Positions 755 through 39,726 of a stretch of DNA of 64,000 bases are shown piece after piece. Where the stretch lies: positions 3,241,001 to 3,305,000 of the forward strand of contig NZ_CP036498.1 in the NCBI RefSeq assembly GCF_018279705.1. Reading direction: 5' to 3'. The notes below the pieces were generated by a model that saw only the letters and a program-made list of their open reading frames with translations, had not been told where the DNA came from and made no database searches. The first letter of the stretch is position 1, and every line of letters starts with the position of its first letter. The position numbers and the translations under genes were made by a program. The DNA is from Tardiphaga alba. Its GTDB lineage: Bacteria > Pseudomonadota > Alphaproteobacteria > Rhizobiales > Xanthobacteraceae.

Positions 755-3700
755 TCACAATCGTCGCCGCTCTCCCGCGAGAAGCTCCATCTTCTCCTCA
801 TCCGTCAGCGACTTCATCTGCTCGGGCGTGATTGGACCGCTTCCGATGACACGGACCGTATCGGACTTTTTCTCGTTGAGTTCGGTCCGCTGCTCATTGC
901 GCCGACGCTTGTTGTCTTCGTCGCCGTCGCCACTTCCCCCGCCATAGCCCAACACTTCCACGATGATCACCGACGGCTGCGCGTTCGCGCTTTGCGCTGG
1001 TGCTGCCGCCTGCTGCGTCGCTGCCGCGGCATTGCTGCTCGACAGCGAGCCGCTGATACTTGGCGCCTGCACGGTGGGAACACCGGTCGCCGTGCCCTGC
1101 CCAGAGATATTCGCGGCATTGACGATCTGCAGCGCCGCGAGGTTCAGATTGCCGGCAAAGCGGATGCCGGCTTCACCGGCGTCGATGACGCCGAGCGGTG
1201 CGATCAGGTCGACATCGCCGGGCGGCTTTTCCGGGAACGGAATGCTGGCAATGCCCGCACCCGCAGACGGCGCCACCGGCGACAGCGCGACATTGCCATA
1301 GTTGTCATAGACGCGGCGCGACGGAGCGAACAGCACCGTGGTCTTGGCGCCGCGGCCGGCATTGATGTCGCCGGTCGCGGTCCATGCCAGGATATTGCCA
1401 CCGAAGGTCGTCATGATGCGCGACAGGCCGAGCAGCACGCTGCCATCGCTATACATCTGGATGTTGCCCTCGCCCTGGGTCATCACGCCTGCCGAAGGCG
1501 GCGGCTGGTCGCCTTCGACGCCGAGGGTGATCTGGCCGCCCGGTGCCAGCATCTGGATGTCGCCGCCGAAATTGGTGCGAATGCCGGAGCCGTCGAACAT
1601 CGTGATGTCGCCGAGATAGGCCGTGGGCTTGCCAGCGTCATCGGTTGCAGGGAACAGCGCCGCAATCATCTCGCGGCCGCGCAGATAGCTCTGATAGCGC
1701 GGGCTTTCAGGATTGTTGTATTCGCGGCCGCCAGCGGTCAGTTCGGCGTAATAGACCTGCCGCAGGAAGACGCGCTGCTGTTCGGGTGCCAGCCCGGTGA
1801 AATAGTCTCGCGCCTCAGCGTCATCCTTGGCGACGAAGCCGTAGCGCTGCTGCAGCCATGCCGTCAGGTCCTTCTCATAGGTCTTGGCGACTTTACCCGA
1901 GCCATCCAGCGGCGTGCCGGTTGGCAACTGGTTGGCCGGATCGAGATAGCGCAGCAGTGCCTGCCACGCCGGGCCTTCCGGTCCGGTGCCGGCCATCACG
2001 ACGATGCTGGCCCCAGGGCGCTTGTCGCCGGCGATCAGCGGCCCGACGCTGGTCAACGAACCTGCATCGCCCTGATAGATGTTGCGGCCGGCCGTTACTT
2101 CCAGCGTGCCCGGCCCACCGATCTGCCAATTCGCATAAGTAAGGTCGCGCCCGGCCTGGATGATGGAGACGTCGGTTGCGTTATTGTTGACGATCAGACC
2201 TCCGCTGCCGACGATGTCGCGGCCGGCACGGATGCGTGCGGACGTCGCGCCGACATACCAGGTGAGGATCGACCGGCCCGTAGTCGCGTTGAAATTCAGC
2301 ACCTCGCCCGATTCCAGACCGAGAATGTCGCCGCCGACCGCATAGAACAGCGCAGGCGACTGGCTGCCCGCATGCAGATCGCGGCTGCCAAGCGTGTTCG
2401 GACCGAATGCGAACAGCGCCGCGCCGCCGCTATTGCTCGCCTGGCTGTTGAATCCGCCGCCACTGGTGAGGGTTCCTTCGCGGCTCGTATTCGAGAGCAG
2501 GACGCCGACCGGCGAGCCACCGCGCCCGACAAAGGCCGGGTTGAACGGGGTCGGGATCGGCGTGTCGGCGCCGGACATGCTGATCGTATAGCCGCCGCCG
2601 AACAGCGAGTTGGCCGCGAGGAATTCGAGCGCACCGGACGAGGACGGTGCCAGCACGATCCCCTGCTCGGACGTCTTGGTGTCGCCGGCCACGGCCAGTC
2701 CGTAATAGATACTGCCCGATGCCGCCGTGGCGCGCAGGATTGACGGATAGGTGGTGCGGATGTCGCCCTGCAACGTGTTGGCATAGTTCGTGTTGCGTTG
2801 GCCGACGATGGTGCCGGGCGTCACGTTGCCGCCGATGCTGAACAGGTTGATCGCGGTGCGATCCGTCCATAGCGAGAACCAGCTTTCGCCATCGCCAGTG
2901 TAGGACACGCCGCCCGCCTTGAACGCCTGCGTGTTGATCACCGGCACGCGACCGGGATCGCTGACGCCGGAGATCACGAGATCTCCCGGCGTGTTGAGAT
3001 AGACCGCGCTGTCGCCGGGCATGAGCACCAGACCCGCGGCGCTGATGGCGCGCCCGGCCGCGAACGGATCGCTGGCGCGGATATCCTTGTGATCGCGCGT
3101 CCCGTAAGCGAGATCGACGGTGCCGACGGCACCAGCCATCACCGAGGTCAGGCCGCGTAGATTGATCAGTGCGCCGTTCAGCTCCGTATACTGCTGATTA
3201 TTGCCGAGGCTGCCGCCCTGGGTGGCCTTGAGATTCGGATTGACCGTTCCGACGACCTGCAGCGTGAGATCGCCGCCGCCCGTGAGCGTCAGGTTGCCGG
3301 CGGCATCCACGCGGCCGGTGCTGCCGATGGCGGCCACCAGGCCCTCACTGCCCGGATAGTTCACCAGATTGGCAGTCCCCTCCGTGATGATGCCAGCATC
3401 GCCGGCGGCGCGGATGGTGAGGTTGCCACCGCCCAGCGTGCCCAATCCGGTGAAGCCGACAATGAACGGATCGGTCAGCGCATTGCTGAAGGGATTGCGG
3501 ACATAAGTGCCGAAATTGATCCACCAGGCCGTCGCCATGCCATCCGCGCTGCGATCGGCGCTGCCGGTGCCCTGGCGCCAGAGCCAGTTGCCGACGCCGA
3601 CCGTGCCGAGCTGCGAGCGGTTGCTGGAGGAAATGCCGCCAAGGATGTTGCCGATGAAATTGCCGCCGACTGCGATGTCGAGATTGCCGCCGTGGTCAGG

Positions 3701-6700
3701 ATACCAGGCCTGATAGGCCGCATCCGCCGCCGCGCGATACTTGGTGTCATTCTCCTGGGTGCCGAGCAGGAAGCCGTTGTACAGGCCGCGACCGAGATCG
3801 AACGGGTCGTTGCCATTGGCGTCGGTTAGCGTCACCGAGCGCGCGCCGGCGGTATAGACGCCGAACAGCGACTCCATACGGAAGTCGCCGGCCGCCGCCA
3901 TGGCGAGATCGCCGGTGCCGGTGCGCACCACGCTGAATAGCGGCGCTAGAACGGTGTGTTGCGTGGTTTCAGGCGAAACCGTTTCGAACTTGTTGCACCA
4001 GGTCGGCCTGACCCTGCATTGGGCTTCTTGATTCTTCGGAACAGGCTGCCCCTCGACACGATTGCCGGTGGCTAGGGACGTCCATGTATAGGAAATGACT
4101 ATGCTCGCCGGAATGGTGACCACATTCGTCATTGCATGGCTGTCGGCGAGGATGATCGAGCCACTCGCACCGGGCATCGTGGCGCGACGATCCGCTGAGC
4201 CGAGATCGGCACCGGCCGTGAACTGCATGTCCCAGCTCGTGCTACCCTCGCCCAGCATCGGCGCCAGCGCCCAGTTGCGGCCCGGCACGCCATTCACCAC
4301 CGGCCGCAGGTCGATCGGCTTGTTGTCGATGAGTTCGACAGCGGTGCCACCCGGCACCACCGAGCCGCGCGGGATCGCGACCGTGGCATTGGCGGTGATC
4401 GTAGCCGGCAAGGCAAAGCCCTTCGGCCAGATCAGCGGACCGACCGAGGCGTCGCTGCGCAGTGCCGTGCCGGCGCCGAGCTTCATGCCGCTGGTGATCA
4501 CGATATCCTGCTGGATCACCTTGCCGGCCGCATGCGCGATGCTGCCATCGACATTGTAGACATTGCCGCGCAGCACTGATCCGACCGGCAGCGTATAATT
4601 GGCCGTCAGTGTCACATCGATTGGCAGGATGACACCCGACGGCAGCGTCATCGCGTCGGTCGACACGTCGTAACCGAGCGTGGCGCCGCGCGGGAATACG
4701 GTGCCCTTGTCGAGCACCACGCCATCGATCGGAATCGACACATCGGCGCCAAACGGCGTAAAGGGCTGGTTGAACTGGTCGCGCCATTCGACGAGATACC
4801 AGCCATCGTCGTTCGGCGTGGCCGGCGGCGGCGCAAAACCGTCATTGACGCTGCCATAGATGCTGATGTTGCCTTTGGCGCGGATCGCCAGCGCGCCCGG
4901 CTCGCCATAGCCGCGGCGGACGTCATTGAGAACGTCGGCATCAGGGCCGTAACGATAATTCGACAGATCGAGATCGCCCACGATGGTGAGATCGCCATTG
5001 GGATTGTCGGCGCTGACCCGGCTGGTGATCTCCATGCCCGGACGCAGATGATAGGCGCCGAGCCCGCTCAGCTTCGCACGCAGCGTTCCATTGGCGAGCG
5101 CACGGTCGATGAAGGCGCGATTGTCGTCGTCGAGATCGTCGAGATAGGCCTGGGTGATGTCCTGCGGCTTGTGGCCGGTCACGTCCGGCGCCGCAGCGAG
5201 CGGCGCATCGTCATAGATGCGGAACGCATTGACGGCGATGGTCTTGGCGCCGCGGATCCCCGGCGAACCAAGCACATTGATGGCGACGTCATCAGCGCCA
5301 TCGTCGCCGCGGGTGCCCGCGGCCACGCCACTGCCGCCGAGACGCGGCGCATTCAGCGCCAGCGTGCCGCGCGCAACACCATCGTTCCGATAGGCCGACG
5401 CACCGGCCGCCTCATCGGTGCCGGCGCGCAGATCGATCACTGCGCCGGCTGCGAGCGTCAAGGTGCCCTGTCGCGTGGTGAGATCAACGATGGCACGGTT
5501 TGGCGCGTCGATGATCTTGCCATAGCTGTCGAAACGCAGGCGCGTGCCATGGGCATCAAGCGTGCCGTTGATGACGAGATCGTTCATCGCCATCAAGCGG
5601 ATGGTGCCTACCTGCGCGCCGCTGGCATCGATGGTGCCATTCACCGTGAGGCTGCCGTCGTCGAGGACGATCTCGACGGTGCGGGCCTTCACCTCATTGC
5701 CGACCGTGAGATCGCCCTGCTTGATCTGGAAGCGGCGGGCACCGAATACTTCGCCGTCGGTGAGGCGGGCATTCAGGCCGGCAAAGTCGACAATGGTCTG
5801 GGCCCGTAGCGTGACCTCGGCGCGATCATACGGCACGAACGTGCCGCCCGCGTCATATTCGCCGCTGGCCGAGCCGATAATGCGACCGGCCAGATCGATG
5901 CGGCCGGCACCGGTGCCGAGCGCGGTCGCCTGCAAGGTGCCGGCGCGGTTATTGACCGCCGAAAGATCGATCGACGATCCCGCAGCCTGAACGATATCGC
6001 CCGACGTGCTCGACAGGACGATCGCTCCGCCATTGCTGTAGCGGGTCTGCTCGAAGAACGAGACAGCGCGACCGGACAGGTCGATCTGCGCATTGTTGCT
6101 GAGCGACAGCAACTGATCGGCGGTCACCGACAACTTGCCGGAAGCGAGTGCGATATTGCCATCGATGGTGACATTGCGGCCGGTCAACGCCAGTTCGGCG
6201 CCGAGCGCGTCGCGCTTGGGGGCCGCGGCACCCTGTGACGAGAACAGGATGTCGCCGCCCGCAGTGATGCGATTGACCGAGCCGGCCTCACCGGTGAGCA
6301 CCGGCGCGAACAGATTGAGATCGCCGCCGCTATAGCTGTAGCCGCTGCCGGGCGTGTAGCTGCCTTGCTGATGATAGACGCTGAGCGAGCCTTTCAGATT
6401 GGCCGAGATGTTTTCGCTGGCATGCAGATTGACCGTGCTGAAACCGAGTGCGACGCGATCCGCCGAATAAGGGACGGCCGGCTGGGTGTTCGGGCCATAG
6501 CCGAACACGATGCGTTTGGCCGAGATGTCGAGCATGCTGCTGCCGAGCAGGCTGCCGATCGCAGCGCCGGGCGTGTTCGGAATATTCGAGCCGCCACTCA
6601 CGGGCGATGGCTGTTCCGACAGGCCGGTCCAGACGAATTCGCCGGTGGAGATGATCGCCTTGTCGGTGGCCGAACCATAGCCATAGATGGCCGGCGTTCC

Positions 6701-9700
6701 CAGCACCAGTCGCTCGATCGAGGACTGGCCGGTGGCGACATCAAGCGTATCGAGCGCCACCGAGCCGTACATATTTACGGACTCGCGGGCGTTCAGCACC
6801 AGCGTTTTCACCGCCGGAATGCCCGCTCCCTTGTTGCCCGCGAGCAAGCTGGCCAGGATATTCTGGTTCATCGACATGCCGGACGGCAACTGGCCATTGG
6901 CGGCCGCCTGCGCCAGCGCCGCATCGCTGCCGAGGTTCACCGACGACACGGACAGCGCCAGATTCTCGGCGCCGTAACGAACATTGTCCGCGAAGGTGAA
7001 TGCCTTGTCGGTGCCGACCGCAATCGTGCCACGCGCCAGAATCGTGGTCTCACCGCTGCAAGCGCCGGTCGCGCATTCGCCGATCCGGATCGTGCCGGGC
7101 TGCTGGCCGCCATTGGAGACAGGCGCCAGCATGTTGATCCAACCATTGGACACCGCGAACACGCTGGCATTGCCGGTCGAGAACACGATGCCGTCATCGG
7201 AGTCGTAAGCGGCTGCCCCGCTGGCCAACGTATTGATCGATGCGCCCTGCTCCACCACGATGCCATCGCGGCCGGAGATCAGGACAACTTCCGCGCCGGT
7301 GAGCACAGCGCCGCTGCGCACTGTCGTGCTCCATCCGTTGGTGCTGTAGGTCGCCACGGTTCCGGCATAGGTCAGGTCGAGCTCACCGCCGATCAACAGC
7401 CGCGGCGCGCCGAACGCATTGAGCTCATCGGCATGAACGGACGTGCCCGTGAAACCGGCTGAGGGGAGTTGACCCTTACCGAGGATCTCGACGTCGAAAC
7501 CGGTCAGCGCGACGGTGCCGCCATAACCGACGCTACCGGCAGCCGGCGCGAACAATGCGCGGCCATCGAACTGCAGCAGCGGCGCGTCGGCGCGCTGCTT
7601 CGAATAGCCGAAAGCGAGCACGAGATTATGCGCATCGGCAAGGATCTCGCCGCGCGTGCCGCCGCGCCGAGCCGAGTCCGCAAGGACAAAGGCATCGTAG
7701 CCCATCGTGTTGTAGCTCGAATGCAGACGCATCGCATCGGACGGCGTAACGATCACGCGGCTGGCCAGCGCCGACCGGATCGACGTATTGGCAACGCCGA
7801 GATAGCCATTCGAGACATAGGAGCCCGTCTCGATCGCAGCCGTGACATTCGGACCGGTATGCGCTGCGCCGATCTCGATACGGAATGCGCCCGGCAGCAA
7901 TGCGTAATTCGCCGGCATCAACGTATAGGTACCAGCCTTCAGGCCGCCGACATCCGACGGCAGCGTGATCTGCTGGCCGAGAGCCGGACCGCTCGCTTCG
8001 AGCCCCGTCGGCGCGATACTGCCGGCATAGGTCGGGACGATGGCATAGACGTTATTCTTGGCCGAACTGAAATCGAAACCTGGATTGGCATTGGCCAGCG
8101 GCGTGCGGATCACATCCACCGAACCGCCGCGGCCGCTGACGAAGCCGGCGCCGACGAGTTCACCGCCGCCGGACAGATCGAGGATCGCACCGCTGTGGCC
8201 GATGACACTGTCGCCGGACAACGAGATTTGCGACGCGCCGAGCGCACGCGGCGTGATCGTCGTGCCTGCCACGCTGTAGCTCTGGCCATCGGCCGTGCCG
8301 CCGTAAGGCATCAATAGCCCGGCAGCACTCACCGATGTGATACTGCCAGGCAAGAGGTGCAGATTTGCGGATGTCACCGACGCGTTGGTGACATTCGTTC
8401 CAAGCACCAGCGTTCCCATCGGGGCGCGAACGACACCGCCCTGACGCACGGTGTGCGCGCCGAGCGACAGGCTGCCGAACAGCGAATAAGGCGCAGCAAT
8501 ATCTCCATCGCGCCCGCGCCGAATCTCCAGGACGCGGCCCGGCGCATAACCCGCCACGATCTGCGCCGAGACGCCGGTGTCGGGATAGATCTGCGCTGCC
8601 GTGATGGTGAGATCGCCTGGCGTATGCAGCTCCGTACCCACACCGATGCCGCGTCCGGTCAAACCGCCAAGCAGACGCAGATCACCGCGGCTGACCATTT
8701 CGACGGAATCGAAGCCGCGGCGGTCCATCACGACAGCCGGCCCGTTGAGCATTGCGACCTCACCGCGCGCGCCAAAGCCGACGCGGTCGCGCACATCGAT
8801 ATGATCCGCCTGCACGCGGAAGGTGGCATCGCTGCTGCGTGCAGAAGCGCCGTCTCGCCAAGTCACCGTCGGAAGGATCTGGAAATCACCTGGGATGCGT
8901 GTTGGCGCCGCCAGCCTGACATAAGACGAAGCCAGCGATATCTGCGCATTGGACTCCGCGGCCTCGCTCAGGGCGTAAGCGCCACCGTAAAGGCGAATAC
9001 TCTGTGCCAGGGAGAGCGTGACATTACCGTCGAACGACAGAATGCCATCCACCAGCAGAGACAGATTGCCGAAGCCACCAGCGGTGATCTGATCAACGCC
9101 AAGCCGACCGACGCCATAAGCCAGCGTCGCATCGGCTTCACCGAACTTCATATCGGCAGACAGGCCGCTCCCGCGATTCACTTGTGACAGTACGAATTCG
9201 CGCGGTACGCGGACCTCGTTGTCTGCTTGATAGGCGGCGCTGGTCGAGTAGATCGACGTCTCGAGCGCGATCGCCAGCGTGCCGCCGGCTGCCGACGCAC
9301 CACCGGCCTGCGCACGGAGCGTGCCATCGAGATACAAGCTATGCGCAGATTTCAGCACGATAGTGCCGCCATTGCTGGCGACCTCGATCGGGGTGTGTCC
9401 ATTGGGACCGGAAACGTCGAGCATCGCGCGCGTCCCCGACGCATCAAGCAATGCACCGGGCCGGATGACGACGGCGATGTCTTGAGTCAGGCCGTCGCCG
9501 GTCGCCTCCCAATCATGGCCGCCACCAATCGCGATGGTGCCGCCCGCCTGGACGCTGCCATAGCGGCCCTGTCCGACCGCCGCGCGCGCCGCGACATCGA
9601 GCACCGCGTTGTCGCCGATCCAGATCGAGCGCCGATGCGCATGCTGCGACACATTTTGCGGCGAATAGGCCAGCGGTCCGTCGATATTGATATTGATGTT

Positions 9701-12700
9701 GCCGCCGAAGGCATTCAGTCGTCCCTCGACATCGATCTCGCTCAACCCTCCGCCGAACAGGCTGATGCTACGACCAGGATCGACCGAGACCACGGCATTT
9801 TTGCCGATGACGATGTCACAGCCCTTCTCGAGCAACTGTGAGCGCAAGACGAGATCGGCGCCGGCGCGCTGGGTCAGCGTGCGCTTGGCCGGATTGTCGA
9901 GATACAGCGGCGCCTGCACGACCTGCAATGCGGCACGATCGCCGGCAGCCAGAGCAGAAGTGTCCTGCACCTGATAAACCGGCGCGATCACCTCGACGTG
10001 GGTGCCATCGGCGACGGTAACGCCGCCATAGCCATTGATGTCGTATTTGGCGAAGCCGCGACGGAAGAAGTCGGGCGTCAGCAGCAACGCTCCGTTGGCC
10101 ACAGCCGATCCCGCTGCCGCGATCAACACCGACGAGGTTGAGATCGTCAACGCGCCGGCGCCGCTGATGCCATAGCCGCGAAGCTCACCATCAAGGCGCA
10201 AGGACCCAGCGGTGGCACCGGCATTGATCGACTGGCCGGCCACCAGCGTCACGCTGCCACCCTTACCTCCCTGGATTTTGCCGTTCACCAGCAACGCCGC
10301 GCCCGAGGAGACATCGATCAGCGCATCACGCTCGATGACCATATCGCGCGTCACCTGCAGATCGACCGTTCCACCATCGAGAAGGCCCAGCAAGGCGGAG
10401 GCGCTGCCGTCGGCCGCCACGCCGCCGACGAGGCCCGAAACATCGATGGTCGCGCCTGCTCGCAGCGTCAGCGACGGCTGGGCACCATTGACCAGTTCCT
10501 CTGTCGCGGCCCCGTCGCGAACCGACTTGAACTGGTTGGTCGATGTCACCCGTCCGCCATGCGCCGTGACATTTCCTTTGATGTCGATGGACGCTGCCGT
10601 CATGTCGAGCGCACCACCATTGGCGAGCGTCAGGCTGCCGTCGATCGTGATGCTGCCGCGGGTGCCAAGATCGAGCCCGCCGAGCCGCTGGCCGCTGAGG
10701 CGGTTTGCGTCAAACCAGACCGTGTTGACGCGATCGGCTGCGAGCAGGCTATCGACGGAAAGATTGCTGGCGATGTCCGCAATCGCGCCGATGCGGATAT
10801 CGGTATCGTAGAGATCCCAGCGCCCGATCCGCGAATAGTCGGCAAGGCCGAGCGTACCGGCCAGCGGCACCGCGTCCTGCACCTGCTTATAGCCATCGGC
10901 GACATTGGCGGCGCGTGTCGAGGTCTGGCGCTCGCCCTTGATGACATCGGCAATGATGTCGGCTTCCATGACGGCGGTCGGTGTCGAAAGATTCAGCCGG
11001 CCGGCATCGCGGCCGGCCGTATAGCCATCCTCATAGCGCCAGCTTGTCGAGCGGTCGAACACCGAGCTCCAGATCTCGGTGAGCTGGTCGGAGACACGGC
11101 CCTGGATGTTATGCGTACGCGAGAAGCCGCCGGCGATGCCAACGAACTTCATGTCGGCCGGTGCATTGTCGAAACTATAGATACGGCCATCGGAGCCGAT
11201 CAGCTTGGTCGAATAGATCTTGCCGCCGTCATAGCTGACCGACCCGCCGGAAATATCGAAACGCGCGCCCTGCTGCGCAATAACGTCATTTGCCGCCAGC
11301 GTAATGGTGCCGCCGACTGCCGACCATTCGCCAATCGTGTGCTTGATATTGGCGAGATAACCGCCGACTTCCAGCAATCCACCTTTGGTGTAGTAGCGAT
11401 AGCCGCTATAGCCGCCGGTGCCGTCGGCCAGCAAAGTGAGATTGCGAATATCGATCCACACATCCTTATTGACCAGCAGGCCGCTATCGCGGTTCTGCGG
11501 GCTGTCGCGCAATTCATTGCCCTGGACATTGACCAGCACCTGATTGGCCGACATCGGCAGCAATACGCCGCGCACGCCGGAGACGTCGATATTGGCGCCG
11601 CTCTCGACAAAGATGCGCTCCTTGGCGCTGACCGAGATCTGGCCGCCTTGCGCCATGGTCTGCGACTTGTTCTGGAACGTGACCTTGCCGCCGGTGACGA
11701 TCTCGATACGCGACTGATCCTGCCGGTCGGTCATCCGCGACAGATTGTCGAACAGACCGAGCGTGGCCTGGGCGCGGTCAACATCAGCCTGAGGCGAGGC
11801 TTTGATCAAAGCGTCGCGCTGACCATCGAGTGCGGTCTCGGAGCTGTCGAGTTCGGGCAGGATGGCAGTCAGCGCATTGGCGCCGAGCGTGATGCGGCCT
11901 TGCGAGTCGTTGGCCGAGTTGAGCAGATGAATGGTGCCGCGGGTATTGACCGACGTGGTCGCGATCATCACGCCGCTCTGGTTCAGCGTGCGGCCGGCCA
12001 GCGTGATGTCGCCCTGTTGTGCAAGGATCAGGCCGCTATTATCGACGCGGCCACTGGTGCTCCCATTGAGAATCTGCGGTGCGATCTCGATGCCGCGCGT
12101 GGTCGATATGGTGTTGCCGGTGGTGCTAAAGCCACGGCGCAGGGCAAAACTGTCGCCCGCAGCCAGAAGCGTCTGCCCCTTCGGCGTGGAAATCGTACCG
12201 GCATTGCTGACTTCCGAACCGATCATCAGCACGAAGCCGCCGCCGGAATTCACGGACGCCGGCGCATTGGTGGCGATCGAAGCGCCAGACTGCACCACGA
12301 CCTTGCCGCCGGCCGCGGTGAAGTTCGGCACATAATTGTTATTTACTTGCGTGCTGAAGATGCCGTTGGTGCGGAACAGATCGGTATCGATATCGGCCGT
12401 CGAGGCAATCAGCGAGCCGACATTGACCTGGCTGTTGCCACCAAAAACAATGCCGTTGCGATTGATCACCAGCACTTGGCCGTCGGCCTTGATATTGCCG
12501 AGGATCTGGCTCGGCGCAATGGCACCGCTGACGCGATTGAGCGCAGTCCAGCTGCTATTGCCCTGTTGGTCGAACGTCAGCGTGGTGAGCGCGCCGACAT
12601 TGAAACTCTGCCAGTCGAGGATCGCCTGCTGGGTGGTCTGACGGATATTGACCTGGGTCTGTCCCGCTGCATCGATGCTCTGGGTCGGGCTGTTCGCACC

Positions 12701-13093
12701 ACTCCAGTTCTGCGGCATATGCGGCAGCAGGCCACCGGCGCCGAGACCGTTCGGAACCGGTATTGACGCCTGGGCAGCGGCAGCAGCAGCGCGCGCTGCG
12801 GCCTGCACAGCCTGCATGTCCTGAACCGCCCGCGCCGCGCGCGTCAGCGAGTCCTGCGATTGCCGCGCGGCTGCCGCGGCCTGCCGAGCAGCCTGTGCGG
12901 CGGCATCAGACGCGATGTTCGGCGCCGAAACCACTCCCCCTGCGCTGCCACCGTTCAAGGATCGCGCTTGAACCGCCGGTGAGGCGGCGAACAGGGTCAG
13001 CACGCTGGCGCCTGCCAGGAATACAGCGTTCCGCATGGCGCGAAGCTTGGAACCGGTCACGATCGAGGACGAAGAGGCGGCACGGACGGACAT
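755..13093 (-). CDS. Giant TPS-type filamentous haemagglutinin exoprotein (adhesin 1)
   Basis: A 4112-residue predicted surface or secreted adhesin. In order: an N-terminal signal peptide (about 1-43, cleavage after AVQA); an Ala/Gln-rich helical stretch (about 45-115); a two-partner-secretion domain (about 125-390) with the hallmark NRNGIVFGGNSQVNVG near residue 210; then a long beta-helix-like Gly/Ala/Asp-rich body. Around 3670-3850 is the DUF3739-like block typical of this haemagglutinin family (LRGREMIAALF). A charged C-terminal tail follows a QPSVIIVEVLGYGGG motif. TPS exoproteins cross the outer membrane through a TpsB pore; no TpsB gene is in this window. Cysteines are rare and partly paired (CATGAC near 2006; a pair near 3028). 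The gene is last in the STN/sigma/FecR operon with a 172-base gap before it, so it may also have its own promoter. It is a paralogue of the protein at 26008-38501. The target and ligand are unknown. Confidence 0.85.
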   Translation of the reverse strand: MSVRAASSSSIVTGSKLRAMRNAVFLAGASVLTLFAASPAVQARSLNGGSAGGVVSAPNIASDAAAQAARQAAAAARQSQDSLTRAARAVQDMQAVQAAARAAAAAAQASIPVPNGLGAGGLLPHMPQNWSGANSPTQSIDAAGQTQVNIRQTTQQAILDWQSFNVGALTTLTFDQQGNSSWTALNRVSGAIAPSQILGNIKADGQVLVINRNGIVFGGNSQVNVGSLIASTADIDTDLFRTNGIFSTQVNNNYVPNFTAAGGKVVVQSGASIATNAPASVNSGGGFVLMIGSEVSNAGTISTPKGQTLLAAGDSFALRRGFSTTGNTISTTRGIEIAPQILNGSTSGRVDNSGLILAQQGDITLAGRTLNQSGVMIATTSVNTRGTIHLLNSANDSQGRITLGANALTAILPELDSSETALDGQRDALIKASPQADVDRAQATLGLFDNLSRMTDRQDQSRIEIVTGGKVTFQNKSQTMAQGGQISVSAKERIFVESGANIDVSGVRGVLLPMSANQVLVNVQGNELRDSPQNRDSGLLVNKDVWIDIRNLTLLADGTGGYSGYRYYTKGGLLEVGGYLANIKHTIGEWSAVGGTITLAANDVIAQQGARFDISGGSVSYDGGKIYSTKLIGSDGRIYSFDNAPADMKFVGIAGGFSRTHNIQGRVSDQLTEIWSSVFDRSTSWRYEDGYTAGRDAGRLNLSTPTAVMEADIIADVIKGERQTSTRAANVADGYKQVQDAVPLAGTLGLADYSRIGRWDLYDTDIRIGAIADIASNLSVDSLLAADRVNTVWFDANRLSGQRLGGLDLGTRGSITIDGSLTLANGGALDMTAASIDIKGNVTAHGGRVTSTNQFKSVRDGAATEELVNGAQPSLTLRAGATIDVSGLVGGVAADGSASALLGLLDGGTVDLQVTRDMVIERDALIDVSSGAALLVNGKIQGGKGGSVTLVAGQSINAGATAGSLRLDGELRGYGISGAGALTISTSSVLIAAAGSAVANGALLLTPDFFRRGFAKYDINGYGGVTVADGTHVEVIAPVYQVQDTSALAAGDRAALQVVQAPLYLDNPAKRTLTQRAGADLVLRSQLLEKGCDIVIGKNAVVSVDPGRSISLFGGGLSEIDVEGRLNAFGGNININIDGPLAYSPQNVSQHAHRRSIWIGDNAVLDVAARAAVGQGRYGSVQAGGTIAIGGGHDWEATGDGLTQDIAVVIRPGALLDASGTRAMLDVSGPNGHTPIEVASNGGTIVLKSAHSLYLDGTLRAQAGGASAAGGTLAIALETSIYSTSAAYQADNEVRVPREFVLSQVNRGSGLSADMKFGEADATLAYGVGRLGVDQITAGGFGNLSLLVDGILSFDGNVTLSLAQSIRLYGGAYALSEAAESNAQISLASSYVRLAAPTRIPGDFQILPTVTWRDGASARSSDATFRVQADHIDVRDRVGFGARGEVAMLNGPAVVMDRRGFDSVEMVSRGDLRLLGGLTGRGIGVGTELHTPGDLTITAAQIYPDTGVSAQIVAGYAPGRVLEIRRGRDGDIAAPYSLFGSLSLGAHTVRQGGVVRAPMGTLVLGTNVTNASVTSANLHLLPGSITSVSAAGLLMPYGGTADGQSYSVAGTTITPRALGASQISLSGDSVIGHSGAILDLSGGGELVGAGFVSGRGGSVDVIRTPLANANPGFDFSSAKNNVYAIVPTYAGSIAPTGLEASGPALGQQITLPSDVGGLKAGTYTLMPANYALLPGAFRIEIGAAHTGPNVTAAIETGSYVSNGYLGVANTSIRSALASRVIVTPSDAMRLHSSYNTMGYDAFVLADSARRGGTRGEILADAHNLVLAFGYSKQRADAPLLQFDGRALFAPAAGSVGYGGTVALTGFDVEILGKGQLPSAGFTGTSVHADELNAFGAPRLLIGGELDLTYAGTVATYSTNGWSTTVRSGAVLTGAEVVLISGRDGIVVEQGASINTLASGAAAYDSDDGIVFSTGNASVFAVSNGWINMLAPVSNGGQQPGTIRIGECATGACSGETTILARGTIAVGTDKAFTFADNVRYGAENLALSVSSVNLGSDAALAQAAANGQLPSGMSMNQNILASLLAGNKGAGIPAVKTLVLNARESVNMYGSVALDTLDVATGQSSIERLVLGTPAIYGYGSATDKAIISTGEFVWTGLSEQPSPVSGGSNIPNTPGAAIGSLLGSSMLDISAKRIVFGYGPNTQPAVPYSADRVALGFSTVNLHASENISANLKGSLSVYHQQGSYTPGSGYSYSGGDLNLFAPVLTGEAGSVNRITAGGDILFSSQGAAAPKRDALGAELALTGRNVTIDGNIALASGKLSVTADQLLSLSNNAQIDLSGRAVSFFEQTRYSNGGAIVLSSTSGDIVQAAGSSIDLSAVNNRAGTLQATALGTGAGRIDLAGRIIGSASGEYDAGGTFVPYDRAEVTLRAQTIVDFAGLNARLTDGEVFGARRFQIKQGDLTVGNEVKARTVEIVLDDGSLTVNGTIDASGAQVGTIRLMAMNDLVINGTLDAHGTRLRFDSYGKIIDAPNRAIVDLTTRQGTLTLAAGAVIDLRAGTDEAAGASAYRNDGVARGTLALNAPRLGGSGVAAGTRGDDGADDVAINVLGSPGIRGAKTIAVNAFRIYDDAPLAAAPDVTGHKPQDITQAYLDDLDDDNRAFIDRALANGTLRAKLSGLGAYHLRPGMEITSRVSADNPNGDLTIVGDLDLSNYRYGPDADVLNDVRRGYGEPGALAIRAKGNISIYGSVNDGFAPPPATPNDDGWYLVEWRDQFNQPFTPFGADVSIPIDGVVLDKGTVFPRGATLGYDVSTDAMTLPSGVILPIDVTLTANYTLPVGSVLRGNVYNVDGSIAHAAGKVIQQDIVITSGMKLGAGTALRSDASVGPLIWPKGFALPATITANATVAIPRGSVVPGGTAVELIDNKPIDLRPVVNGVPGRNWALAPMLGEGSTSWDMQFTAGADLGSADRRATMPGASGSIILADSHAMTNVVTIPASIVISYTWTSLATGNRVEGQPVPKNQEAQCRVRPTWCNKFETVSPETTQHTVLAPLFSVVRTGTGDLAMAAAGDFRMESLFGVYTAGARSVTLTDANGNDPFDLGRGLYNGFLLGTQENDTKYRAAADAAYQAWYPDHGGNLDIAVGGNFIGNILGGISSSNRSQLGTVGVGNWLWRQGTGSADRSADGMATAWWINFGTYVRNPFSNALTDPFIVGFTGLGTLGGGNLTIRAAGDAGIITEGTANLVNYPGSEGLVAAIGSTGRVDAAGNLTLTGGGDLTLQVVGTVNPNLKATQGGSLGNNQQYTELNGALINLRGLTSVMAGAVGTVDLAYGTRDHKDIRASDPFAAGRAISAAGLVLMPGDSAVYLNTPGDLVISGVSDPGRVPVINTQAFKAGGVSYTGDGESWFSLWTDRTAINLFSIGGNVTPGTIVGQRNTNYANTLQGDIRTTYPSILRATAASGSIYYGLAVAGDTKTSEQGIVLAPSSSGALEFLAANSLFGGGYTISMSGADTPIPTPFNPAFVGRGGSPVGVLLSNTSREGTLTSGGGFNSQASNSGGAALFAFGPNTLGSRDLHAGSQSPALFYAVGGDILGLESGEVLNFNATTGRSILTWYVGATSARIRAGRDIVGSGGLIVNNNATDVSIIQAGRDLTYANWQIGGPGTLEVTAGRNIYQGDAGSLTSVGPLIAGDKRPGASIVVMAGTGPEGPAWQALLRYLDPANQLPTGTPLDGSGKVAKTYEKDLTAWLQQRYGFVAKDDAEARDYFTGLAPEQQRVFLRQVYYAELTAGGREYNNPESPRYQSYLRGREMIAALFPATDDAGKPTAYLGDITMFDGSGIRTNFGGDIQMLAPGGQITLGVEGDQPPPSAGVMTQGEGNIQMYSDGSVLLGLSRIMTTFGGNILAWTATGDINAGRGAKTTVLFAPSRRVYDNYGNVALSPVAPSAGAGIASIPFPEKPPGDVDLIAPLGVIDAGEAGIRFAGNLNLAALQIVNAANISGQGTATGVPTVQAPSISGSLSSSNAAAATQQAAAPAQSANAQPSVIIVEVLGYGGGSGDGDEDNKRRRNEQRTELNEKKSDTVRVIGSGPITPEQMKSLTDEEKMELLAGERRRL

Positions 13094-13265: not shown

Positions 13266-14288
13266 TCAACTCAGCACGACGATCCCTGCGGGATAGCGCG
13301 TGACTGTCAGCTTGAACGTATTTTCCACTTGCGCGAGCGCCTGCTCCATCTGGTCGATGCGAAAGCGACCGCTGAGCAATCGCTGTCCTTGCGCAGCATT
13401 GCTCAGAATGATCCGACCGGATCTGTAGCGGTTCATCTCCTCCACCGCTTCGGACAGCGGCGTATTGCGAAATGTCACGATGCCGCGGCGCCATTCCGAC
13501 ACCGCGGCCGGATCGATCGCATCGATTTCGCCGACACGGAGGCCACCATAGGAGACCCGCTGCCTTGCATTGAGCTCTGCGACCTGCGTGCCGCTTTCGA
13601 CCCTCAGCCGGCCCTCCAGACATGTCACGACCGTTTGCGCGCCGGCGCCAAAGGTGCGCAGTTCGAATTGGCCGGCTTCGCTGACGATCTTGCCGTCTGC
13701 GGCAAACACTGCAAGCGCACGCGACGCACTGCCTGGCGCTTTGAAGGATGCTTCACCCGCGATCAGTTCGATGCGTTCCTCCGTGGCGGTTGCGGGACGA
13801 ACTGCAAGGCTTGTCTGGGTATTCAGCGCGATCTCGACATCGCCGGCAAAGGCGACCGTGCGCTGCTCACCGGTGCCGGTGCGGAAATCCGCCCGCATTT
13901 CGGAGACGGAGGGCCACAACCCAAGAGGCGGTCTTATGGCGCCGTAGATCGCCGCACCGCCGATCGAAGCAAAGGCGGCGCCTAGCATCACGCGCCGGGT
14001 CATCACCGCACGCTGCCGGCCATATTCCTGAAGCGGCGCCATGAAATTTGCGTCGGCGCCGTATTTGGCGCGGCCCACCACCGCCATCCGCTGCCAGATG
14101 CGCTCGGCCTCCTCATAGGCTGTCTGGTGATGCGGATCCTGCATGCGCCATCGCTGCGCGCTCGCGATCTCTTCCGCTGTCGCAGCCCCCGAAGCGAGCT
14201 TCTGAACCCAGCCAACTGCCTGCTGCTCGATCTGGCTCAGATTGGACCTGTGATGCTCGCTCATCTGTCGTGATACCGCTGACGCCAT
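13266..14288 (-). CDS. FecR-like anti-sigma/signal-transducing regulator 1
   Basis: A 340-residue inner-membrane regulator expected to bind and control the adjacent FecI-like sigma factor. The N-terminal ~90 residues form the cytoplasmic anti-sigma part (DUF4880-like, with QAVGWVQKLASG and WRMQDPHHQTAYEEAERIW). A single hydrophobic segment follows at about 95-115, preceded by TRR. Then come the periplasmic FecR domain (RTGTGEQRTVAFAGDVEIALNT region, LIAGEASF, VTCLEGRLRVES) and a C-terminal STN-interacting region ending AGIVVLS. It sits between sigma factor 1 (74-base gap) and adhesin 1. The ATG at 14288 has a weak ribosome-binding site; an in-frame ATG at 14264 is also possible. The RR before the membrane segment recalls Tat-type signals reported for other FecR proteins. 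Confidence 0.85.
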   Translation of the reverse strand: MASAVSRQMSEHHRSNLSQIEQQAVGWVQKLASGAATAEEIASAQRWRMQDPHHQTAYEEAERIWQRMAVVGRAKYGADANFMAPLQEYGRQRAVMTRRVMLGAAFASIGGAAIYGAIRPPLGLWPSVSEMRADFRTGTGEQRTVAFAGDVEIALNTQTSLAVRPATATEERIELIAGEASFKAPGSASRALAVFAADGKIVSEAGQFELRTFGAGAQTVVTCLEGRLRVESGTQVAELNARQRVSYGGLRVGEIDAIDPAAVSEWRRGIVTFRNTPLSEAVEEMNRYRSGRIILSNAAQGQRLLSGRFRIDQMEQALAQVENTFKLTVTRYPAGIVVLS

Positions 14289-14362: not shown

Positions 14363-14875
14363 TCAGCCCATCAATTCCTTGCAACGCGACAAACAATATT
14401 CGTGGGCACGGACCAACTCCCTGGCAACCGTCCGACGCGTGATCCGCATCTGTTTGGCGATGACGTCATGCGGGATATTTCCCACGCGCGCCGCAAGGAA
14501 GATCGCACGCTGTCGCGCCGGAAGCTCGGACACGATGGTCTCGAACGCATCGATCTCGGTCCTCGCAATCATCTCCTCTTCCGGCGTCGGCTTGTCATCC
14601 GGGATTTCCAGAGCCAGATCGAGCTCGACACTTCGCCGGTGCCGCTTTTCCTTCCGGTGCAAATCGATGGCCGCATTCAGCGCGGTGCGGAACAGATAAT
14701 TCTCCGGTCGCGCGATCTCCCTGTCCGTCCGCCCCGTGGCGAGGCGGATCCAGGCGTCGTGCATCGCCTCGTCGGCGAGATCGGCTGAACCAAGCCGCCG
14801 GGTCAACCGCTTTTTCAGATCGGTGTAATCCTCGCTGAACAGCCGGCGCATCACCGTTTTCGCCAGACCGCTCAT
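14363..14875 (-). CDS. FecI-like ECF sigma factor 1
   Basis: A 170-residue extracytoplasmic-function sigma factor, which directs RNA polymerase to a small regulon. Region 2 is seen in the first ~85 residues (LKKRLTRRLGSADLADEAMHDAW, then ENYLFRTALNAAIDLHRK). Region 4 is at about 115-165 (LPARQRAIFLAARVGNIPHD, HTH around IAKQMRITRRTVARELVRA). Its ATG overlaps the stop codon of the upstream STN-TonB_C gene by four bases (ATGA), so the two are translationally coupled, exactly as in the second copy of the module. The fecR gene follows on the same strand. Its most likely targets are this operon and adhesin 1, by inference from linkage. Confidence 0.87.
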   Translation of the reverse strand: MSGLAKTVMRRLFSEDYTDLKKRLTRRLGSADLADEAMHDAWIRLATGRTDREIARPENYLFRTALNAAIDLHRKEKRHRRSVELDLALEIPDDKPTPEEEMIARTEIDAFETIVSELPARQRAIFLAARVGNIPHDVIAKQMRITRRTVARELVRAHEYCLSRCKELMG

Positions 14876-15606
14876 CGCACGCCACCCTGCGCGCGACGAT
14901 GGGGCTCAGTGGCGTCACAATCGGATTTGGCGCCCGGTGATTGCGGCGTGAACAGCAGACGGATCGGCTGAACGAAGCCCGCCGGCGGCGGCTCCCGAAA
15001 GTGGATCCGACGCAGTGCGCTGTTGATGGCGTGGTCAGTCTCAGGCTGTCCAACACTCCCAAGCTTGAGAAAATCCTGCACCGTGCCGTCCGGCGCAATC
15101 CAAAACACCGTGACGAGGCGATATTGGCCCGGCCTCGCATGAGGAATCCGGCAAAGCGTCTCCAAAACATCCTGTTGCACAAGCGCATAATAGCGCCGAT
15201 CCGGGCGATCCTGCCCTGATCGTCGCTCCGGAATTGGTTCCAGTACGTATGTCTCTTCGGCAACGAAACGCGCTGTCAGACCTGTTCCGACGAGCATCTG
15301 AGCCAATGCCGCCTCTGGCGTCGCGCGCCCCTCGACGCCGCCCGAGAACCGGCCGTCCACGACCCCGCCTTCGTACAGCGCCTCTTTGCCAGTCACATCG
15401 CCATAGCGAATGAGCGCCGAACCAAGCGGTTGCGCGGCAATCGAGAAATGAAACATCGGCTCTGCGGCCACGCAGGTCGTTATGGCGGCGTGCGCGAGCA
15501 GGAGGGCGCCGTAGATGCCGCCCGAGATCGACGCGCCCCTGCGCTTCGCCCCATTCCGCTTCAAGTCTGGAAATGGCTTACTGGCGATGTCGGCTCGCTG
15601 AGGCAT
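14872..15606 (-). CDS. Exported STN-TonB_C fusion protein 1
   Basis: About 244 residues. After a positively charged start and one hydrophobic export/anchor segment (about 27-48, GGIYGALLLAHAAITTCVAA) comes an STN domain (secretin/TonB short N-terminal domain; FHFSIAAQPLGSALIRYGDVT, EGRATPEAALAQMLVGTGL, ETYVLEPI) at about 52-125. The C-terminal half resembles the TonB C-terminal fold: FWIAPDGTVQDFLKLGSVG followed by AINSALRRIHFREPPPAGF. STN domains normally form the signalling plug extension of TonB-dependent receptors and contact FecR. Here there is no receptor barrel, so this small periplasmic protein may carry the signal instead. It is the first gene of the module and overlaps the sigma gene by four bases. 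ATG at 15606 is preferred; a GTG two codons upstream (15612) is possible. Confidence 0.72.
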   Translation of the reverse strand: MPQRADIASKPFPDLKRNGAKRRGASISGGIYGALLLAHAAITTCVAAEPMFHFSIAAQPLGSALIRYGDVTGKEALYEGGVVDGRFSGGVEGRATPEAALAQMLVGTGLTARFVAEETYVLEPIPERRSGQDRPDRRYYALVQQDVLETLCRIPHARPGQYRLVTVFWIAPDGTVQDFLKLGSVGQPETDHAINSALRRIHFREPPPAGFVQPIRLLFTPQSPGAKSDCDATEPHRRAQGGVR

Positions 15607-16162
15607 TCTCACTGCTCAACCGGCGAGGAGCAGCTCAGGATCTGCGCCGATAAGTCTCTGCGACGGCTCCGGTCACGCCGCCAACAAACGCGGCGGAAAC
15701 TAGGCGCGCCTCATTGCAGATTTACGACAAGCGGGAGACTGTGGGCGGGCGCGACCATCACGTCGCTGTCCCTTTGGCCGTCTGGCCGTTCGGATGGCAT
15801 CAGGGTAGAAGCAGTACAGCGCGATTAGGCCTGTTTTAAAAATGGCAGGTCAAGGGCTGGTAGGTGATCGGCTGAAGCCGATGTCCGCCATGCGCCCCAA
15901 TACCAGCCATCGCCTCATTCCAGGTGTCTGACCGAAGATGATGTTGAGTTATTTCAAAATCTTACGGAGGTGCCACGAGAGTAAACAATCGGATTGCTTC
16001 AGCGGAAATGTTCAAAACGCTCGGCGATTCTGAACGATAGGAATCCATCGCCTGCCAACGGACCAATGCCGCATCCTTGGCTTTTAAGGCGTTATTTTGA
16101 GACAGACTCTTAGGGGAATAATTCGGTACTCGATGCAACTCTTGCGACGCTGATTATAGCAT
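15607..16162. other. Intergenic region between two minus-strand operons
   Basis: About 555 bases separating the end of the M20 hydrolase operon from the start of the STN/sigma/FecR operon. I see no gene with coding character. The stretch close to 15600-15760 should hold the promoter of the STN gene. A short hairpin (ATCGGCTGAAGCCGAT, 15869-15884) is present. The AT-richer part near 16090-16150 shows no clear terminator for a convergent transcript. Confidence 0.4.
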
Positions 16163-25985: not shown

Positions 25986-26007
25986 GATTTTCAGGGTCAC
26001 CAGCGCA

Positions 26008-29000
26008 TCAGCGAACGAGCCGACGCCTCTCCTCCGGGGTGAGCTGATCCAGCGCCGCCTGCTCCAGTCTGCCGGCGCCGAGCACCTGGACCGGACTGTT
26101 CGGGTTTTGCGTGCGGCGCTCATCGCGCGGTTCGGTACGCAACTGCTCACGCTTCCTTTCGTCGTCATCCCCGCTGCCTCCGCCATAGCCGAGCACTTCG
26201 ACGATGATCACCGATGGCTGTGTATTGGCTGACTGCGTCGGGGTCGCTGTCTGCTGGGTCGCAGCGGCGGCATTCGAGGTGGACAATGCAGCGGAGATGC
26301 TCGGCGCCTGCACGACAGGAATGCCCGCGCTGCTGCCCTGCACCTGGATATTCGCCGCATTCAACACCTGCAGTGCGGCAAGATTGACGTTGCCCGAGAC
26401 GCGGATCCCGGCCTCGCCGGCGTCGATGGTGCCGAGCGGCGCGATCAGGTCGATGTCGCCGGCCTCCACTTCCGGGATCGGATTGAGCGTCGCGATGCCG
26501 GCGCCCGAGGACGGCGTCACCGGTGCCAGCGTGACATTGCCATACATGTCCATCGTCCGGCGCGGTGGCGTGTAAAGGATCGTGCTCTTGGCGCCGCGGC
26601 CGGCATTGATGTCGCCAGTCGCAGACCACGCCAGAATGTCACCGCCGAAGGTCGTCATCATACGCGACAGGCCGAGCAAGACGCTTCCTTGCGAATAGAT
26701 CTGGATGTTCCCGCTGCCTTGCGTCACGAGTCCCGCTGTGGCGCCCGGCACCACGCCTTCGACGCCAACGATCACCTGTCCCCCGGTGCCATCATCTGGA
26801 TGTCGCCGCCGAACAAGGTCCGCACCGAGCCGTCGCGCGTGCGGCGCACGCTGTCATTGACCATGGTCACGGGATTGTAGACGTCCTCGAAATATTCCGT
26901 GCTGAACAGCGTGATGTCGCCAGTGCGGACGATTGCACTGCCGTCCGCATTCTTCTCCGGGAACAGGGTCGCAATCATCTCGCGGCCACGCAAATAGGAG
27001 CCGAAGCGCTTCGACGTCGGATCGTTGTAGTCACGCCCGCCCGCGCGCAGTTCGGCGTAATAGATCTCGCGCAGGAAGATGCGCTGCTGCTCCGGCGCAA
27101 GGGCGTCGAAATAAGCGAGGTTTTCTTCGGCGCTGCCGTCGTGCCCGTAGCGGGCCTTCAGCCAGTCGGCGAGTTCCTTGCCATAGGACTTCACAGCCTT
27201 GCCGGGCTGATCCGCCAGCGGCATGTCTGGATTGGCGAGGTTCGCCGGATCGAGATAGCGCGTGCGAACCGCAGCCCAGTTCGCGTCCGACATGCCCGCC
27301 GCCACGAACACGCTGGCACCGGGTCGGTTGTCGCCGGCGATGATCGATCCCAGCGAGGTGATCGCGCCGCGATCTTCCTGGCGGATGTTGCGTGCAGCCG
27401 TCACTTCGAGCGTGCCGGGGCCGGCGATATCGAACGAGCTGAAGATGATGTCACGGCCCGCGGACACGATCGACACATCCGTCTCGGACGAGTGGGCGAT
27501 CAGGTTGCCGGTGGAGCGACCGCCCATGCCGGTGGTCGGCATATAGGTGAACTGACCGATATTGGTCCCGCTGTTGACGATGTCACGACCGGCCTTGATC
27601 CAGACAGGCCCGCCGGCTTCGTAAAGTGTTCGGCCGTTCAGGGCGTCGGTGAAGCTTGTCAGAACCTCGCCCGTTCGAAGGCCGACGATGTCTCCCGACA
27701 GCGCATAGAAACGCGCCGGCTGCAGATCGTAGAGACCGGAAGCGGTATTGGGGCCGAAGGCGAACATGTTGTTGGCCATCTGGAAAGCCAGCGGACTGAG
27801 ATTGCTCATGGTCGCCGGGTTAAATGGGGTCGGGACAACCGATACATCCGCGCTCGACCGTGTGATCGCGTGGCCACCGGCATAGATCGAGTTGCCGGCG
27901 AGAAGCTCAAGCTCTCCATACGGCGATGGCGCCAGCATGAGCGAGTAGCCCAGAGGCTTGCCACCCTGCCGAACCGCGGAGGCCCCTGCATAGATGCTGC
28001 CTGATGGCGCGGCGGCGCGCAGGATCGCGGGATAAACGAACCGTGCGCCGGTCGCACCCGCCATCGCATTGGGAGCAATCTCCGACCCGGCCTCGCCCAG
28101 TTGAATGCTCGGTGTGAGATTGCCGCCCGCAGCAAACAGATCGATCGAGGTCCGGTCCGTCCAAAGGCTGAACCAGGGATTGGACCCACGAACCGCAGGA
28201 TCGATGCTCGGCAGGCGACCACCGTCCCAAACACCTCCGGCGACGAGATCGCCGCGCGACGTCAGGCTGAACGTGGAGTCGCCCGGCATCAGCATCAAAC
28301 CGCCGCCCGCCAGCGCCCAGGTCGACGTGAACGGATCGTAGGCGCGCACTTCCTTGGGATCCTGGAATGCCGCGAACGGACCATAGCGAAGCTCGACATT
28401 GCCATGCGCCCCCGCCTGGATCGCGGCATGACCGCGCAGATTGGCAGCGAGACCGCTCAAACCCAGGTTGAGATATTCGGGCGTCGGATTGCTCGAGCCC
28501 GGGACCATTTCCATATGCGCGAACCGGTTCGGATTGATCCCGCCGCCGATGCGGACATCCATGTCGCCGCCGCCGGTCAACAGCAATTCGCCATTGGCAT
28601 TGACGCGGCCGGTCGAAGCGACGGCCAGTACAAGCCCCTGGCTGCGCGGATACACCTTGGTATCGACGCGGCCCGGGCTGAGCACGTCGATGGTGCCGGC
28701 GCCGCCGCGCACATCGACCTGCAGATCGCCGCCGCCGAGCGTGCCGTAACCGGTGAAGCCGACAAGATAGGGATAGTCGCTGAACGGCTGAGTGTCGTTC
28801 CGCCCGGCAACGTAGCTGCCGAAATTGATCCACCACGCCGCGCCATTCGCAGCGCCGGCGACATCCCCCTGCCGCCACAGCCAGTTGGCCGGATCCGCAC
28901 TCGAATTCTGCCCGTGCCGGCTTCCTTCGGCACCGAAGACGCCGCCCTGCGTCCATGAATCGCCGGTGAGATTTCCGCCGGCTTTCAGCAGCAGGTTGCC

Positions 29001-38000: not shown

Positions 38001-38501
38001 CGTGGTGCGCGCGCCGATGTTGAAACTTTCCCAGTTCAGAATCGCCTGTTGGACACGCTGGCGAATATTGACCTGGGTCTGTCCGTTACCATCGACACTC
38101 TGGGTCGGCGTGTCGGCGGCATTGTTCCAGTTATATCCTCCCTGATCCAGGCCACCGGCTCCGAGGCCATTCGGGATCGCGAGCGGTGCCCGCGTAGAAA
38201 CCTGCGCCGCCGCTGCCGCAGCCCGCGCAGCAGACTGCACCGCCTGAATGTCCTGCACGGCGCGCGCTGCTCGTGCCAATGACTGTTGGCTTTGCTGGGC
38301 TGCTGCAGCCGCCTGCCGCGCCGCCTGCGCCGCGGCATCGGCCGCAATGTTCGGTGCAGAGACGGCTCCGCCAGCGCTGCCGCCGTTGAGCGAACGGGCA
38401 TGAACCAGCGGCGCGGACATCAAGAGGGCGACGGCGCTGACCGTCGTCAGCAAAGCGCCGGAACGCGAAAACACCTGATGCTTGTTGAAATTCGACGCCA
38501 T
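26008..38501 (-). CDS. Giant TPS-type filamentous haemagglutinin exoprotein (adhesin 2), frameshifted near the C-terminus
   Basis: A paralogue of adhesin 1. The first frame gives 3909 residues: signal peptide (about 1-35), Ala/Gln-rich helix (36-110), TPS domain with NRSGIIFGGNSQVNVG near 207, long beta-helix body, and a DUF3739-like block (about 3700-3840, LRGREMIATLF). It then stops after GGDIQMMAPGDR because of a one-base deficit in a C5 run at 26780-26784. The remaining 255 codons (from 26775 to 26008) continue the family sequence in another frame: VGVEGVVPG, then GNIQIYSQGSVLLGLSRMMTTFGG and the QPSVIIVEVLGYGGG tail. Restoring one G gives a 4164-residue protein colinear with adhesin 1. 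It contains two tandem Cys-bearing segments (PDYNVCLQEPGQC and PSYNVCLAESGQC, about 3014-3074). ATG 38501 has an AAGGGG site. No TpsB partner is nearby. Confidence 0.85.
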
Positions 38502-38667
38502 GATTGCCCCTTACACGGCGCGACAGAACGCACCGACACCATTCCTGCGAAGGGACCGAGGCAGAACACATCGATATCCGCGATTGCGGCCGGCAATTTC
38601 TATTGCCGAACCGTCAATCGCGCATGACAGACACGTCCCTGCTCCCGTCTCTTCTCGTGATTGCCCG

Positions 38668-38707
38668 TAAGACGGTTGGAGGCAGGGCCGGACTGAACCG
38701 TGTCACA
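38668..38707 (-). promoter_or_regulatory. Candidate regulatory elements upstream of adhesin 2
   Basis: In the 228-base gap between fecR 2 and adhesin 2, the minus strand has TGTGACACGG and, downstream, CCGTCTTA, echoing TGTCACACGG and CCGTCTGA upstream of adhesin 1. The gap between the two elements is ten bases longer here, so this arrangement is not a standard promoter spacing. It may be a shared regulator site. Confidence 0.2.
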
Positions 38708-38729
38708 AATATTTCGTATGTAAATCGGC

Positions 38730-39698: not shown

Positions 39699-39726
39699 GG
39701 GGTCCTCTTTTTCAGCCACCGTCCCC

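Follow-up and report, generated by a model that had tools for sequence, protein, structure and literature searches.

The window, by which we mean the whole stretch of 64,000 nucleotides of Tardiphaga alba DNA analysed here, encodes a small STN-domain protein ending in a TonB-like domain, a sigma factor, a FecR-type anti-sigma factor and a giant adhesin, and the presence of this set is confirmed. The circuit is of the PUMA3 (VreA-VreI-VreR) architecture, in print since 2009, and is no new kind of circuit. We give an even chance to the reading that it is dedicated to the adjoining adhesin, with the adhesin's periplasmic tail being read by the cognate STN protein, which would report through FecR. 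What is new here is that trios of STN protein, sigma factor and anti-sigma factor ("spokes") match adhesins in number, that spoke adhesins have a specific tail extension, that this tail covaries with the trio, that the C-terminal domain of the sensor is akin to TonB2, the TonB of the TPS operon, and that a separate "hub" sensor occurs with TpsB-ExbBD-TonB. The features of the first copy are:

14872..15612 (-), STN plus TolA/TonB-fold protein of the spoke type, VreA-like (another possible start is the ATG at 15606)
15235..15459 (-), STN signalling domain (model residues 53-127)
14941..15213 (-), TolA/TonB-like C-terminal domain of the STN protein (model residues 135-225)
14363..14875 (-), ECF sigma factor, VreI-like (ATGA overlap with the STN gene)
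13266..14288 (-), FecR-type anti-sigma factor, VreR-like
755..13093 (-), two-partner-secretion (TPS) adhesin, 4112 aa, with TPS domain and DUF3739
935..979 (-), tail motif 1 of this adhesin
758..865 (-), tail motif 2 and C-terminus of this adhesin, within the spoke-specific extension

The trio spans positions 15612-13266 (-) and is followed by the adhesin. The original prediction was of a Fec-type sigma/anti-sigma pair in which a small STN and TonB-like protein replaces the receptor, and the domain matches bear it out: in the profile search proposed as its check the 246-aa product gave an STN domain at 30.0 bits, and fold comparison gave a match to the signalling domain of FpvA and a C-terminal domain of the TolA/TonB fold. 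No TonB-dependent beta-barrel was found on this protein, the 246-aa ORF ending after the TonB-like domain. Its N-terminal stretch is hydrophobic (by eye), and the invariant cysteines of the spoke alignment described below correspond to model residues 155 and 233, in and just past the TolA/TonB-like domain. The STN and sigma genes share 4 bp (ATGA), the four-base overlap first noted, and a FecR-type gene and the 4112-aa adhesin do follow as claimed. The anti-sigma factor matches PupR, whose structure was solved with a bound STN domain. No promoter dyad shared between the FecR and adhesin genes scored above shuffles.

The same order had been said to repeat at 38730-40942. The set does recur, at window positions 40942-26008, but the STN gene there has a disrupted reading frame in the part for the C-terminal domain:

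40328..40942 (-), second STN protein, frame-disrupted within the C-terminal domain, which goes on in another frame at 40296-40472
39727..40272 (-), second ECF sigma factor
38730..39698 (-), second FecR-type anti-sigma factor (start set at the ATG at 39698)
26772..38501 (-), second TPS adhesin, N-terminal frame, 3909 aa
26008..26775 (-), second adhesin, DUF3739 and tail in a separate frame (motif 1 at 26176-26220, motif 2 at 26011-26100)

Phase variation driven by repeats was rejected for this copy: positions 26000-41000 hold only two weak tandem repeats, neither of them at a frame break. The genome, a single contig of 5.86 Mb, encodes four TPS-domain adhesins each preceded by an STN-sigma-FecR trio, two of them in the window and the others at loci L007 and L008. 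Three of the four adhesins are in split frames, with TPS-domain frames of 3912, 2965 and 960 aa and DUF3739 frames of 281, 446 and 859 aa; these splits and the disrupted STN gene may reflect either decay or sequencing error.

A fifth trio heads the hub (locus L019), the order of which is STN protein, TonB1, sigma factor, FecR, TpsB, ExbB fused to a DUF2341 and a laminin-G domain, ExbD, a 161-aa protein, TonB2, Porin_5, PpiC and an ORF named YbjN by position. This is near the published order in Pseudomonas aeruginosa, where the operon pdtB-exbB2-exbD2-tonB4 is followed by genes for a putative porin, a YbjN-family protein and a PpiC-type isomerase (PMC4971064; PMC7035377). A second TpsB gene of the T. 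alba genome (L018:8226-14149) lies away from any trio, its neighbours including one FecR-like gene and one gene like those for CHASE2 signalling proteins (both by eye).

The suggestion that the circuit is new does not hold. The available text of Llamas et al. (2009) already describes VreA with an STN-like and a TolA/TonB-like domain, its 4-bp overlap with the sigma gene, the control by PUMA3 of a TPS system with exbBD, and four PUMA3-like clusters in Rhodopseudomonas palustris, three preceding tpsA and one preceding tpsB (PMC2729926). The T. alba system agrees with PUMA3 of P. aeruginosa in its small STN protein without a beta-barrel and with a TolA/TonB-like C-terminal domain, in the order STN-sigma-FecR with the 4-bp sigma overlap, in the FecR-type regulator, in the TPS link, TpsA lying directly downstream of the trio, and in the exbBD link: TpsB stands with ExbB, ExbD, TonB2, Porin_5, PpiC and YbjN behind another trio of the genome, as TpsB does with exbBD, tonB4, porin, YbjN and PpiC in PUMA3. 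Compared with the R. palustris clusters, our genome has four adhesin trios and one hub trio, and beyond the available text of that paper we describe two kinds of STN protein and the adhesin tail extension (PMC2729926). With signalling of the FecA-FecI-FecR, FpvA and FoxA type the system shares the STN domain, a FecR/PupR-type anti-sigma factor and a FecI-type ECF sigma factor, but it is without the beta-barrel receptor, its STN domain being fused to a TonB/TolA-like domain.

The 53 distinct STN proteins of the fetched loci comprise 11 of the hub type, with TonB1 adjoining, a linker of 41-44 residues, the motif [DQ]L.L..[LM].V in 11/11 and no cysteine in the C-terminal domain, and 42 of the spoke type, with a linker of 15-31 residues, that motif in 0/42 and at least two cysteines in the C-terminal region in 42/42. 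The hub protein of T. alba (L019:3789-5299) and ten other hub-type proteins have a conserved insert before the TonB-like domain and an adjoining TonB gene, and the spokes have neither; the insert is disordered in a structure model. When the 42 spoke proteins are aligned the mean column identity is 38%, with nine invariant columns, two of which are the cysteines of the C-terminal region. In profile comparisons (hhalign) the spoke C-terminal domain is nearest TonB2 (probability 99.1, against 79 for TonB1), and so is that of the hub type (99.3, against 4 for TonB1). To judge by sequence, the sensor would seem to be a receptor signalling domain fused to the TonB end of the TPS system itself. It shares the fold of, and through hub TonB2 a sequence relation with, the TolA/TonB C-terminal domains (TPS-operon TonB, in the position of P. 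aeruginosa TonB4); unlike TonB, it shows neither a membrane anchor nor a proline-rich span between the signal region and the STN domain, the STN domain precedes, and the spoke sensors have the two invariant cysteines.

The neighbourhood survey that the original prediction had also proposed found small STN/sigma/FecR trios together with DUF3739 adhesins in 18 genomes. It covered 149 genomes of the family, with up to 18 STN and 29 adhesin candidates scored in each, and 398 of the phylum, with up to 7 and 11, small-STN matches in the latter being taken at E 1e-20. Among the matches listed, full-length small STN proteins occur in at least 12 and DUF3739 adhesins in at least 16 of the family genomes, the matches listed in the other family genomes being STN domains in receptor-sized frames or partial matches; in the phylum set a full-length small STN protein is listed for 11 genomes, every one of which falls within the 14/398 with DUF3739. 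Spoke trios equal DUF3739 adhesins in number in 18/18 genomes (44 and 44 over 10 family genomes, 11 and 11 over 8 others), the counts of adhesins/spokes being:

Family: G000 4/4 (one spoke frame-disrupted), G004 2/2, G046 3/3, G053 9/9, G075 5/5
Family: G088 7/7, G096 2/2, G100 4/4, G105 3/3, G108 5/5
Family, 1/0: G028, G043, G044, G074, G095, G114
Outside the family: G240, G275, G397, G442, G464 and G533 1/1; G426 2/2; G519 3/3
Outside the family, spoke-less: G300 (two adhesins, one hub-type STN protein), G167, G410, G500

When the ten spoke-less genomes were re-searched and all candidates scored, hub-type proteins were found in G095, G043 and G300 and only partial matches in the rest. The gap between FecR and adhesin is about 11-12.5 kb in G240, G275, G442 and G533; in G533 it contains type II secretion genes (secretin, GspE and GspL), as does the P. 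aeruginosa locus in print. In G464 the trio has its adhesin upstream. A contig scan with one protein returned a single locus, in Bradyrhizobium elkanii WSM2783 (L011). Tandem spoke modules about 15 kb apart, some of them round a hub, were seen in G088:C6 and C8, G100:C3 and G108:C1.

DUF3739 adhesin systems have a common operon, TpsB-ExbB-ExbD-TonB2-Porin_5 (L019:7450-16921, L096, L098, L099 and L221-L224). The results connect two-partner secretion with a dedicated TonB-ExbBD unit, a connection which also exists without the trio: the fetched stretches of G167 and G500 hold TpsB, adhesin, ExbB, ExbD, TonB2 and Porin_5 and no trio, so that the TonB-linked TPS unit occurs without the signalling add-on.

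Adhesins of the family close with motif 1 (consensus PS[VI]I[IL]VE[VI][LV]G[YF]GG), which lies at or near the C-terminus in spoke-less genomes and is diverged outside the family, strongly so in G300. Motif 1 was rejected as a spoke-specific element, having been found on inspection in six spoke-less genomes; motif 2 is what these miss. Spoke adhesins extend 36-75 residues past motif 1, with motif 2 (e.g. YDPNSAFRLLGNGALT), and this C-terminal extension is present in 55/55 distinct tails of 17 spoke genomes and in 0/11 adhesins of 10 spoke-less genomes. The count leaves out three ORFs (two antisense, one ending before the tail) and includes G053 C52:460-756, an orphan at a contig edge with its trio not in view. 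Scored with a leave-one-genome-out profile of the extension, for which 550 shuffles gave a maximum of 12.1 bits and a 95% level of 3.3, the 55 spoke tails reach at least 15.0 bits (median 54.9). Seven spoke-less tails score -4.1 to 6.6 bits, four of them (3.8-6.6) exceeding the 95% shuffle level and lying far under every spoke tail; four more (G167, G500, G410 and the second G300 adhesin) score at most 2.6 bits, and 12 spoke tails re-scored alongside, which are not independent of the profile, score 30.6-69.2 bits. Both tail states occur within one genus, in g44 (G096 as against G074 and G044) and in g28 (G108 as against G028). The PUMA3-like G240 and G533 have two distinct, short tails of 39 residues with low scores (24.6 and 24.7 bits), and one might therefore speculate that tail function is weakened there. 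Like CdrA-type adhesins these are very long TpsA proteins whose C-terminus may remain periplasmic; unlike them, the DUF3739 adhesins have motif 1, and motif 2 solely where spoke circuits occur.

Over 31 spokes the distances of STN protein, sigma factor and FecR intercorrelate (r 0.71-0.78; 0/500 within-genome permutations), and the TPS domain gives r 0.02-0.07 with these three. Tail covariation was measured with 29 modules of 10 genomes, again with within-genome permutations, the tail lying about 12 kb from the trio. Tail distance correlates with that of the STN C-terminal domain (r 0.40), sigma factor (0.44) and FecR (0.40), with 0/1000 permutations each, and with that of the STN N-terminal part (r 0.30, 1/1000); against the STN C-terminal domain, the C-terminal region before the tail gives r 0.08 (202/1000) and the TPS domain r 0.10 (48/1000). 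With the alignment refined, r of the tail is 0.36 for the STN C-terminal domain and, for the mean of the trio distances, 0.40 (0/400). In 17 control windows, each 60 residues long, r ran from -0.04 to 0.14 against the trio and from -0.03 to 0.20 against the STN C-terminal domain, the top value belonging to the last window before the tail (0.20 against that domain, 14/400); two windows in the adhesin N-terminus have r of at most 0.07, yet few permutations reach them (0-30/400). Given the 48/1000 of the TPS domain and the 14/400 of the pre-tail window, the contrast is strong and not absolute. Leaving out one genome at a time the tail keeps r 0.26-0.44, and after controlling for TPS domain and preceding region r is 0.36. 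The module nearest in sigma factor has the nearest tail in 11/29 cases (median rank 2 of 28, the TPS domain having a median rank of 16).

The far end of the adhesin thus seems, from these sequence distances, to have evolved together with its three-gene switch, and no earlier report of such coupling was found in the open literature searched. The original prediction had offered an "adhesin state" as one possible signal, and the covariation of the C-terminal adhesin tail with the trio lends this support for the kind of protein found in the window. TPS-domain distances are 0.42 within genomes and 0.49 between them, which suggests a shared TpsB.

The P. aeruginosa adhesin CdrA is reported to have a periplasmic C-terminal tail (PMC5422565). 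FhaB is a further TPS adhesin with its C-terminal part in the periplasm, and members of the TolA/TonB fold bind peptides. Beside the observed domain build, gene order, equal numbers, kinship of the STN C-terminal domain with hub TonB, and tail presence and covariation, we would set the following scheme. Several adhesins would have one TpsB in common; the adhesin being secreted would keep its C-terminus in the periplasm, where the cognate STN protein would bind the tail extension through its TonB-like domain; and binding would alter the contact of the STN domain with the STN-like end of FecR, and hence sigma release. In this way the secretion state of one given adhesin would be signalled by its circuit, and the sigma factor might be switched either on or off. 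In the available account of the Fox system the receptor signalling domain protects the anti-sigma factor from proteolysis without signal (PMC11637429), and such shielding could be one possible switch. The more particular proposal of adhesin-identity sensing we rate a shade below even. On this proposal, where several giant adhesins have one secretion pore in common, every adhesin would bear a C-terminal address tag; the TonB-like domain of the cognate STN protein would recognise the tag in the periplasm, and that STN protein would set the cognate FecR and sigma factor. Were it true, the cell would know which adhesin occupies the shared pore and could lock it in or shut it off. The available text of the 2009 paper leaves the outer partner of VreA unknown (PMC2729926), and that of a 2020 paper calls its function, "if any", unknown (PMC7035377); pairing and covariation put forward the adhesin's C-terminal stretch as a concrete candidate partner for the VreA-type sensor, and suggest a way in which several giant adhesins could be managed via one pore.

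Since the tail covaries equally with sigma factor, FecR and STN protein, the partner is not singled out. This would suit an arrangement in which the tail acts directly on the periplasmic part of FecR, on a periplasmic protease or on TpsB, the STN protein merely tuning FecR, as would the proteolysis that the periplasmic C-terminal tail of the P. aeruginosa adhesin CdrA is described as undergoing (PMC5422565); we think it unlikely, the STN protein being, among the matches listed, the only TonB/TolA-like fold of the trio, and the gene order being kept in spokes.

It is rather improbable, in our judgement, that the STN protein senses the TonB/ExbBD machine instead, its TonB-like domain pairing or competing with hub TonB and so reporting energisation or occupancy, and the tail being an additional secretion element that travels with the module. 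The kinship of the C-terminal domain with hub TonB2 points that way, as do the TonB1 gene adjoining the hub-type STN gene and the disordered insert confined to hub-type proteins. An "energised TonB" signal had indeed been the other suggestion of the original prediction, and with its adjoining TonB gene and conserved insert the hub-type protein, which is absent from the window, is the better fit to it; the insert, however, did not score as a receptor-type TonB box. By eye the hub insert looks like such a box, but as a firm label for hub inserts or adhesin tails we rejected the term: with a matrix from 37 receptor boxes, scored against the 95% shuffle level, only 2/11 inserts and 4/55 tails exceed that level. 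Sensing of the machine also leaves unexplained why the tail alone, unlike the rest of the adhesin, follows the trio, and why there are as many spokes as adhesins when the hub is shared.

Least probable is that the STN protein is dispensable or decaying, with sigma factor and FecR governed by how strongly they are expressed, as happens through PhoB in P. aeruginosa. Deletion of vreA there, in the available reports, changed neither pdtA/phdA expression in low phosphate (PMC4971064) nor zebrafish virulence (PMC7035377), and its authors doubt the participation of VreA, which also tells against the tail-reading scheme. The second STN gene of the window is frame-disrupted as well. Yet the nine invariant columns and the conserved cysteines of the 42 spokes speak for upkeep of this protein.

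Elsewhere the window encodes a DUF4172-Fic protein (60179-61282), an IalB-family protein (42602-43450) and a TRCF/Mfd-type protein (52484-56005).
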